This document shows positions 36,867 through 39,657 of a stretch of DNA of 64,000 nt, piece by piece. Each line of letters opens with the position of its first letter. Within the stretch, counting starts at the first letter, position 1. Where the stretch lies: assembly GCA_002683135.1 (NCBI GenBank), contig NYSS01000152.1, positions 1-64,000 of the forward strand, written 5' to 3'. Both the position numbers and the translations under genes were made by a program. This DNA comes from Planctomycetota bacterium (GTDB lineage: Bacteria > Planctomycetota > GCA-002687715). The notes under the pieces were generated by a model. It worked only from the letters and a program-made list of their open reading frames with translations. It was not told where the DNA came from and searched no databases.

Positions 36867-37664
36867 TTGCCGCACCACTTCGAAACGGTTGACGTCCGAC
36901 GCGAGGGGAGGACACTTCAGGTCCTGCTCCAACGCCCGGAGGTGCGCAACGCGTTCGACGCTCGCATGATCTCCGAGTTGACGACCGTTTTTGAGGAGGC
37001 CGCGGGAGACGAGACCCTGGGCTGTGTCCTCCTTCGGGGTGACGGGCCTGTTTTCTGCTCCGGCGCCGACGTCAATTGGATGCGTGCGGCGGCCGACTAT
37101 TCGGAGGAGGAGAACCGGGAGGACGCGCGGCGGTTATCCCGTCTATTCCAGGCATTCGTCGCCGTCCCGTGTCCCACGGTCGCCGCGATCCAGGGGGCGG
37201 CGGTCGGCGGAGGCTCAGGGTTGGTGGCCTGCGCGGACATCGCCATCGCCGAATCCTCCGCGACGTTCGGTTTCACCGAGGTGCGGCTGGGCATCATCCC
37301 AGCGGCGATCTCCCCGTTTGTCTTGCGCAAGGTCCCCGCGGCCCACGCGAGGAGGTACTTCGCGACGGGTGAGACGTTTGACGGGCAGCGGGCAGCGGGC
37401 ATCTGCCTGGTGAGCGAGGCCGTGCCGGCTTCGGAGCTCGAGTCGCGGGTGGGCGAGGTGATCGAGGCGATCCTCGCCGTCGGTCCACGGGCTTCTCGAC
37501 AGGCGAAGCAGCTCGTCGACAAGGTCCTGGGTCGGCCCATGGCCGAGGTCACGGAGATGACGGCCGGGCTCATCGCGCAGGTCCGCTCGACCGACGAGGC
37601 ACGGGAGGGGCTGTCCGCTTTCCTGGAGAAGCGCTCTCCAGCGTGGCGTGAGGGGGAGCCTTGA
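36867..37664 (+). CDS. liuC: enoyl-CoA hydratase, probable methylglutaconyl-CoA hydratase
   Basis: 265 residues from a TTG at 36867, with AGGAG five bases upstream; an earlier in-frame TTG would lie inside mccB. Crotonase fold: RPEVRNAFDARMI, the oxyanion loop CSGADVNWM, AAVGGGSGLVACADIAIA, and the catalytic Glu in FTEVRLGIIPAAISPFV. The EVRLGIIPA.IS pattern and the position between MCC subunits point to hydration of 3-methylglutaconyl-CoA to HMG-CoA. The end overlaps the biotin carboxylase start as TTGA. Confidence 0.87.
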   Translation: MPHHFETVDVRREGRTLQVLLQRPEVRNAFDARMISELTTVFEEAAGDETLGCVLLRGDGPVFCSGADVNWMRAAADYSEEENREDARRLSRLFQAFVAVPCPTVAAIQGAAVGGGSGLVACADIAIAESSATFGFTEVRLGIIPAAISPFVLRKVPAAHARRYFATGETFDGQRAAGICLVSEAVPASELESRVGEVIEAILAVGPRASRQAKQLVDKVLGRPMAEVTEMTAGLIAQVRSTDEAREGLSAFLEKRSPAWREGEP

Positions 37665-39163
37665 TCCAACGCGTCCTCGTCGCGAATAGGGGCGAGATCG
37701 CGTGCAGGGTCATCCGCACGCTCCGCGCGCTCGGCAAGGACGCTTGCGCGGTTTATTCGGACGTTGACTCGGAGGCCCCTCATGTGAAGCTCGCGGACGA
37801 TGCGCGCCTCATCGGGGCAGCCCCGGCGTCGGAGAGCTATCTAAACATCGCCAAGGTGATCACCGCGGCGCGAGAGATGGGGTGCGACGCGGTCCATCCG
37901 GGGTACGGGTTTCTCTCCGAAAGCGCGAGCTTCGCCGAGGCCTGCGTGGCCGAAGGGCTCGTGTTTATCGGCCCGACCCCGGAGGCCATCCGTCGCATGG
38001 GTGACAAGGCCGAGGCGCGGCGCGTCGCGGCGGAGGCCGGCGTCCCCCCGGTCCCTGGGTCGGCGGGCTCGTGCGACGACGCGGCGCTCGCCCATGAGGC
38101 CGAGCGCATCGGCTATCCCTTGCTCGTCAAGGCTGCGATGGGCGGTGGCGGGAAGGGGATGCGCAAGGTCGGCCGGGAGTCAGAGCTGGCGAGCGCGATC
38201 GCTTCTGCGCGTCGCGAGGCGCAGTCGGCGTTCGGTGATGGCGCCCTGCTCCTTGAGCGCTACGTCTGTCCGTCGCGTCACGTCGAGGTTCAGATCCTGG
38301 CTGATATGCACGGCCACGTCGTCCCGGTTCTGGAACGGGAATGTAGCCTGCAGCGCCGTCACCAGAAGGTCATCGAGGAGTGCCCTTCACTCGCCGTGGA
38401 CGACGCCTTGCGATCGCGGATCAGCGAAGCGGCGGTCACGCTGGCGAAGGCCGTTGGCTATGTCGGCGCCGGCACCGTGGAGTTGCTCCTCGAGGAGGAC
38501 GGGTCGTTCTGGTTCCTGGAGATGAACACGCGCCTGCAGGTCGAGCATGGGGTGACCGAGATGGTGACGGGGCAGGACCTCGTTGAATGGCAGGTGGCGA
38601 TCGCCGAAGGCGCGCGGCTGGCGGAGGCGCTGCCGGCGGCGTTCACGCCGAACGGGTGGGCGGTGGAGGCGCGCGTCTATGCAGAGGACCCGGAGTCTGG
38701 ATTCCTTCCCCAGGTCGGTCATGTGGATCGCCTCGCGTTGCCTGGCGGGCCAGGCGTCCGTATCGACTGCGGTGTGGTGGAAGGCCAGGACGTGACTCGG
38801 CACTACGACCCGATGCTCATGAAGGTCGTCGCTCATGGGTCCAACAGGGAGGAGGCCCGCACCCGGCTCGTCGCGGCGTTGCGGGATCTTCACATCATCG
38901 GTCCGGCTACGAATATCTCGTATCTCATCGAGATACTCCAGGGTGAGGCGTTTGCTCGTGGTGACACCTTCACGGACACGCTGGAGTCGAGCGCATTGCC
39001 GGATCCTCCGGACGAGATCCCGGACGCGGTCCTCGCCCTCGCGGCCTTGAGCCTCACGAGCCGTGGTCCGAAAGGGGCCAGCGACGACCTGGAGCGCGAC
39101 CGGTGGTCTCCTTACGACCGCCTCGGAGATTTTCGGATCGTGCCGACGGAGGGCGGATCGTGA
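37661..39163 (+). CDS. mccA: biotin carboxylase part of a split methylcrotonyl-CoA carboxylase alpha chain
   Basis: 500 residues. Complete biotin carboxylase fold: VLVANRGEIACRVIRTLRAL, HPGYGFLSE, ATP-grasp glycine loop KAAMGGGGKGM, and EMNTRLQVEHGVTE, where Gly replaces the nearly invariant Pro. Usual MCC alpha chains run to about 650-670 residues and end in a biotin-transfer region and BCCP domain; here the chain stops at about the start of that region. The rest is a separate overlapping gene in another frame. Start TTG overlaps the hydratase stop (TTGA). Confidence 0.9.
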   Translation: MIQRVLVANRGEIACRVIRTLRALGKDACAVYSDVDSEAPHVKLADDARLIGAAPASESYLNIAKVITAAREMGCDAVHPGYGFLSESASFAEACVAEGLVFIGPTPEAIRRMGDKAEARRVAAEAGVPPVPGSAGSCDDAALAHEAERIGYPLLVKAAMGGGGKGMRKVGRESELASAIASARREAQSAFGDGALLLERYVCPSRHVEVQILADMHGHVVPVLERECSLQRRHQKVIEECPSLAVDDALRSRISEAAVTLAKAVGYVGAGTVELLLEEDGSFWFLEMNTRLQVEHGVTEMVTGQDLVEWQVAIAEGARLAEALPAAFTPNGWAVEARVYAEDPESGFLPQVGHVDRLALPGGPGVRIDCGVVEGQDVTRHYDPMLMKVVAHGSNREEARTRLVAALRDLHIIGPATNISYLIEILQGEAFARGDTFTDTLESSALPDPPDEIPDAVLALAALSLTSRGPKGASDDLERDRWSPYDRLGDFRIVPTEGGS

Positions 39164-39657
39164 GCGGCGTCCGTCATCGACTGCGATGGCGTGGCCAGGA
39201 CATCGATTTGTCCTGCGAGCGTCGCGGGGATGACCTCGTCGTTGGACGCGGCGAGGAAGAACTGGATGCGTCCATCGTCTCGGAGGGTGAGCGACTCGTG
39301 GTCGAGGTCGCGGGCGAGTGCTTCAGCGGCGTCGTTCACGTGTCTCGTGAGCGGGTCGTCGTGTCGCACGCAGGGCGCACCTGGGTCCTCGGGCGGACGT
39401 ACGGGTCCGAAGGCGGGGCCGCTGCCAGTGAGGTCAGGGGCGGCGATATCGAGGCTCCCATGACAGGGACGGTGCTCGAGGTGCTCTGTGCTGCGGGGGA
39501 CTCCGTCGAGGCGGCGGCTCCACTCGTCGTGGTGGAGGCGATGAAGATGGAGCATCGCCTGACTGCCCCGAGAGCGGGTACGGTGGTATCGGTCGACGTT
39601 GAGGCGGGGCAACTGGTCGACATCGGTCAGATCCTCGTGCGATTGGAGTCGCGGTGA
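39160..39657 (+). CDS. biotin carboxyl carrier protein, second part of split MCC alpha chain
   Basis: 165 residues from GTG 39160, overlapping the biotin carboxylase stop as GTGA. Residues about 1-90 look like the beta-barrel biotin-transfer region of MCC alpha; residues 95-165 are a biotinyl domain with the target lysine in EAMKMEH and the preceding GDIEAPMTGTVLEV. Together with the upstream gene it reconstitutes an alpha chain of normal total length (about 665 residues). It must be biotinylated by a ligase not in the window. Confidence 0.9.
   Translation: MSGVRHRLRWRGQDIDLSCERRGDDLVVGRGEEELDASIVSEGERLVVEVAGECFSGVVHVSRERVVVSHAGRTWVLGRTYGSEGGAAASEVRGGDIEAPMTGTVLEVLCAAGDSVEAAAPLVVVEAMKMEHRLTAPRAGTVVSVDVEAGQLVDIGQILVRLESR

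Follow-up and report, generated by a model that had tools for sequence, protein, structure and literature searches.

The 64,000-nucleotide stretch of Planctomycetota DNA analysed here (the window) very probably encodes a working methylcrotonyl-CoA carboxylase (MCC) in which the function of the alpha subunit is divided between two chains that are translated separately, so that the enzyme has three chains in all: a biotin carboxylase (BC) chain, a BT-carrier chain and the beta subunit. MCC is a dodecameric holoenzyme which carboxylates 3-methylcrotonyl-CoA, and its alpha subunit is, in the textbook description, a single-chain BC-BT-BCCP protein. Features of the locus are listed in Table 1.

Table 1. 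Features of the MCC locus, with positions in the window.
Feature	Position	Strand	Basis or remark
MCC beta subunit (carboxyltransferase)	35251..36858	+	805 bits to P. aeruginosa MCC beta, top match in the PDB
Enoyl-CoA hydratase family, probable methylglutaconyl-CoA hydratase	36837..37664	+	Pfam ECH_1; start codon uncertain
BC chain of MCC alpha (C-terminal BT helix and hook)	37661..39163	+	Biotin_carb_N, CPSase_L_D2, Biotin_carb_C; 500 aa
BT-domain helix, BC-chain residues 455-466	39023..39058	+	AlphaFold2 helix, lower-confidence block; same alignment place in fused proteins
BT 'hook' tail, BC-chain residues 467-500	39059..39160	+	disordered when modelled alone; pLDDT <50 for 468-500
GGAGGG Shine-Dalgarno-like site of carrier gene	39148..39153	+	read directly; 6 nt 5' of GTG
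GTGA stop/start overlap of BC and carrier genes	39160..39163	+	read in sequence
Carrier chain (BT barrel and biotinyl domain)	39160..39657	+	Biotin_lipoyl 96-162, BT_MCC_alpha 4-78; 165 aa
Eight-stranded BT barrel, carrier residues 4-79	39169..39396	+	AlphaFold2: eight strands
Biotin carboxyl carrier domain, carrier residues 97-164	39448..39651	+	Pfam and AlphaFold2
Biotin-accepting lysine codon (EAMKM, Lys129)	39544..39546	+	residues 128-130 (MKM) invariant across 27 carrier chains
Hydroxymethylglutaryl-CoA lyase, next leucine-pathway gene	39704..40636	+	PRK05692, 392 bits (cut-off 246)

The GTGA overlap proposed in the first-pass annotation was confirmed by direct reading of positions 39160-39163. 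The BC frame runs from a TTG start to a TGA stop and the carrier frame from the GTG at 39160 to a TGA ending at 39657; the end of the upstream gene and the start of the BC gene share a further 4-nt overlap (TTGA). The carrier frame is open further 5' of the overlap, and the ORF caller placed its start at GTG 39103. The start was assigned to the overlap instead because the carrier frames of relatives open only there (4 nt before the BC stop in L013 and L032, 10 nt before it in L017, and only past the BC stop in L019). The reported genome-wide habit of GTGA overlaps proved real within the 64-kb window, where an overlap of the 4-nt type is possible at 14 of the 34 same-strand neighbour pairs; such overlaps are therefore common in the window and nothing special attaches to the GTGA alone. 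Its location is remarkable, and the split recurs at a conserved position that is not due to chance.

The original assignment to MCC was borne out by the beta subunit, its diagnostic Phe and the leucine-operon neighbours. The beta chain scored 805 bits against MCC beta in the PDB, compared to 475 for GCC beta and no more than 256 for PCC-named beta chains, apart from 9tps_A; this high match is labelled PCC beta, and the title of the corresponding holoenzyme entry, 9tqc, names L. pneumophila MCC. Phe163 of the beta chain (...DREHFGR...) aligns with human Phe191, an active-site residue which is Phe in MCC and Gly in GCC (PMC4673880). In addition, the chain aligns to MCC beta from residue 1, while most PCC-named matches start at query residue ~29 or later, and it appears from this alignment to possess the N-terminal helix of ~30 residues that is present in MCC beta and absent in PCC beta. 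The best PDB sequence match was MCC alpha (3u9s) for both the BC and the carrier chain, and BC, BT and BCCP functions were all identified, spread over the two chains (Pfam and AlphaFold2). The BC chain fell outside the AccC clade (branch support 100) and scored 520.8 against the accC model, which has a cut-off of 626.5. NCBIfam matches to the pair carried generic acyl-CoA carboxylase names and the top NCBIfam matches of the hydratase were to PRK05674 (gamma-carboxygeranoyl-CoA hydratase), in both cases below cut-off. The biotin/lipoate ligase family is represented in the genome by three matches that exceed the cut-off. The alpha function does not reside on a single polypeptide, as a stop which is conserved in relatives lies between the two frames, and the enzyme was therefore filed as an MCC variant and not as textbook MCC.

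Elsewhere in the window, a PduO-type cobalamin adenosyltransferase (40674-41246, minus strand) adjoining an apparent B12-dependent ribonucleotide reductase (41695-44985, plus strand), and a DEAD-box helicase with an array of GGGGPR repeats at its C-terminus (32996-34324, minus strand), were recognised by eye.

The split had been placed at about the biotin-transfer region; as a correction, the cut was found to fall inside the BT (BC-CT interaction) domain. In the GCC structure this domain consists of a long helix within an eight-stranded barrel, linked by a 'hook' loop which contacts beta (PMC4673880). AlphaFold2 models, built on shallow input alignments (26-27 sequences), gave a BC chain (mean pLDDT 88) comprising BC, the single helix 455-466 and a disordered tail (468-500), and a carrier chain (mean pLDDT 86) with a low-confidence linker (84-93) between the barrel and the biotin domain. 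The top fold matches of the carrier model were MCC and PCC holoenzymes, the best being MCC of M. smegmatis. The two models together therefore indicate one domain shared by two chains, with helix and hook on the first and the complete barrel on the second. The carrier matches Pfam BT_MCC_alpha only from profile position 40 of 118 (23.3 bits, below the 31-bit cut-off). When joined, split proteins align across the junction with fused (proteobacterial) proteins and the cut falls within a few residues of one position, 3' of a conserved SPW..GWR/GFR stretch and 5' of the first BT strand. The SPY..GDFR of the BC tail aligns with SPW..GWR of the fused proteins, the hook Trp of the fused forms being Phe here.

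The nearest genomes (BC identity 66%, 59% and 53-56%) have this split too, each with a 4-nt overlap in which the carrier starts at an ATG or GTG of its own, and in the genome analysed here the second acyl-CoA carboxylase, of PCC type, likewise has its alpha divided at a GTGA overlap (L002; G000 contig C37, 8707-13089). Fused and split forms were distinguished by explicit frame tests; open-frame length was dropped as a test, as GC-rich frames run on by chance. Among Planctomycetota loci with downstream DNA present, nearly every BC of the acyl-CoA carboxylase class was followed by a separate carrier gene. A Chloroflexota-centred sample (29 loci, around a Caldilineaceae genome) gave 26 split loci, 2 that were truncated and 1 in which no carrier was found, and split forms were also seen in Acetothermia (with a 38-nt gap) and Eisenbacteria. 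Stop and start overlapped by 4 nt at 70 and by 1 nt at 5 of 90 distinct split junctions (75/90 together). The 53 loci sampled via MCC beta, nearly all from Pseudomonadota, were fused, as were two Actinomycetota alphas. The earlier view that a split alpha is not the usual form thus holds for Pseudomonadota and Actinomycetota, but in the enzyme's own phylum the split is normal.

One clear fused planctomycete case was identified (L015); its neighbour is a GCC-like beta, and the genome, of 12.3 Mb, has an MCC-type beta elsewhere. This fused protein had been classed as 'BC only' because its motif is EAMKI. This fused GCC-like alpha with its EAMKI motif (L015/L216; G053 contig C273, 51500-57500) is a possible transfer from another phylum. 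At another locus (L033; G056 contig C32) several hundred bases separate the BC and carrier genes, which do not overlap. An 851-aa alpha with a long beta in Thauera phenolivorans (L118, 7001-12600), considered as an insertion, was rejected as a duplicated scaffold join at N runs, both genes having a stretch repeated around such a run.

Together the two chains have 665 aa, a length in keeping with a single-chain alpha, and the frames meet seamlessly, as would be expected had an assembly or sequencing frameshift interrupted one continuous MCC alpha gene. Such an error is nevertheless the least probable of the explanations considered: independent genomes of no more than 66% identity have the same split with starts and overlaps of their own, in L013, L019 and L147 either the carrier frame is closed a short distance 5' of its start or a gap lies between the two genes, and a Shine-Dalgarno-like site is present. 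No continuous frame was found across the junction in the relatives checked, and the presence of the same split at the same place in relatives 66% and 59% identical upholds the first-pass preference for two true proteins. It is also highly improbable that programmed frameshifting yields two products from one mRNA, the short BC chain and a fused alpha of full length. The carrier lies in the -1 frame at the overlap, and frameshifting and coupling may coexist at such junctions according to PMC3711429; against this, no slippery heptamer was seen at the junction, the junction sequences of relatives vary freely, several relatives have a gap or lack a shared open frame, and the 'Biotin carboxylase' cluster of that paper is assigned there to translational coupling. 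As regards the substrate, the generic names of the sub-threshold NCBIfam matches leave room for a two-chain enzyme that works on geranyl-CoA or propionyl-CoA and is not an MCC, but the bit scores of the beta chain (9tps_A apart), its diagnostic Phe and the methylglutaconyl-type hydratase and HMG-CoA lyase in the operon make this very unlikely.

As regards the direction of change, a BC tree with AccC as outgroup nested all sampled fused alphas within the split ones, set apart by a single branch (support 92, not starred). In the beta tree the proteobacterial fused MCC lineage formed one clade (support 99), which remained one in a further beta tree with Actinomycetota added (96); the tree giving 99 had distant PCC beta as outgroup and a very long branch, and it was not relied on alone. 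In the first BC tree fused PCC alphas stood apart from fused MCC alphas (2 changes), while in a smaller BC set including Actinomycetota they joined (1 change, support 92), and the number of fusions is therefore uncertain. Separate genes first, with later fusion in Pseudomonadota and Actinomycetota through one or two state changes, is favoured but not proven; this reading is simpler because the AccC (acetyl-CoA carboxylase) outgroup has a separate carrier and the fused alphas group together. The fission suggested in the first-pass annotation was left unsupported, as separate chains are normal here and in several further phyla, and parsimony with the outgroup points to fusion, although the AU tests leave the direction open. 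A single break at the hook of an ancestral single-chain alpha, in the ancestor of the split lineages, is unlikely but deserves some weight: holding the split forms as one clade was not rejected for BC (AU test, p 0.48) or for beta (p 0.61, the held tree being slightly better), and according to Lombard and Moreira (2011, PMC3199775) BC and BCCP were already fused when these carboxylases began to diversify. Weighing the other way are the fused forms nested inside split ones in the free BC and beta trees, and the separate carrier of the AccC outgroups together with the split PCC-type and GCC-like enzymes, with which fission needs more steps than one fusion. On balance, and with a little better than an even chance of being right, the two-gene alpha would be ancestral in bacterial acyl-CoA carboxylases (MCC, PCC and GCC types) and have persisted in phyla that include Planctomycetota and Chloroflexota, the single-chain form found in Pseudomonadota and Actinomycetota, and hence in mitochondria, would have arisen later by loss of the stop at the hook/barrel overlap, and the split enzymes would assemble helix into barrel.

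Most likely, translational coupling yields the two chains, which then reassociate non-covalently by insertion of the helix into the barrel. Overlaps of 4 nt drive translational coupling and are over-represented among genes whose products form heteromeric complexes (PMC10666635), and a conserved overlap of 4 or 1 nt was found here at 75/90 junctions, with GGAGGG ahead of the carrier gene in the window. A ribosome stopping at the BC TGA would re-initiate on the overlapping GTG, so that carrier and BC chains are produced in matched amounts. The C-terminal BT helix and hook of the BC chain would next insert into the carrier's BT barrel, restoring a non-covalent equivalent of single-chain MCC alpha, and the reassembled alpha would bind the beta hexamer, with biotin swinging between the BC and CT sites. 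A genome-wide screen for conserved frame transitions lists a 'Biotin carboxylase' cluster, 75% of which has adjacent stop and start (PMC3711429), and the BC/carrier pair described here is likely of the same kind.

No description of a split MCC alpha was found in the open literature. Enzymes of this class have been described as consisting of one BC-BCCP subunit and one CT subunit, with none in four Planctomycetes genomes (Lombard and Moreira, PMC3199775); the present data do not fit this two-subunit-type statement or the absence from Planctomycetes, and they make the fusion of BC and BCCP before diversification, proposed in that paper, testable. Separate BC and carrier genes in other carboxylases, the annotation of such pairs in public records and the coupled 'Biotin carboxylase' cluster (PMC3711429) were already known. 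To these the present analysis adds the case of MCC, the placing of the cut within BT and a history of fusion that can be tested, and the novelty is moderate. A phylum-wide three-chain form would alter the textbook two-subunit picture. Annotation is also affected, generic family models naming both halves as parts of acetyl-CoA carboxylase, and a natural fused/unfused pair of one complex makes the effect of fusion on assembly directly testable.

Compared to P. aeruginosa MCC (PDB 3u9s/3u9t) and human MCC, the enzyme described here has the same BC-BT-BCCP order, the diagnostic Phe in beta and leucine-pathway genes; the alpha of those enzymes is one chain, whereas here it is cut between the BT hook and BT strand 1. 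Separate BC and carrier products are shared with bacterial AccC and AccB and with the archaeal ACC/PCC (separate BC, BCCP and CT). AccC, however, stops after the BC domain (frames of ~450 aa), while the BC chain here adds the BT helix and hook, the carrier, unlike AccB, has a BT barrel, and the beta is of MCC type. The GeneTack 'Biotin carboxylase' cluster (128 genes, 44 genera, class TC; PMC3711429, Table 2) has a stop/start-overlap frame transition as here; in the part of that paper available, no enzyme, domain cut or phylogeny is named for it. A two-gene alpha is also annotated on a Sulfitobacter alexandrii plasmid (L222; NZ_CP018080, 2308-5894), in an alphaproteobacterium, where the fused form is the rule. 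There, a BC and a biotin/lipoyl protein (WP_071974314 and WP_071974315) lie beside an MCC/GCC-type beta; the BC was weakly placed in the BC tree. This pair differs from the one in the window in having an atuA-family neighbour, which indicates an acyclic-terpene context, and in that its BC and carrier genes lie one base apart, without overlap.
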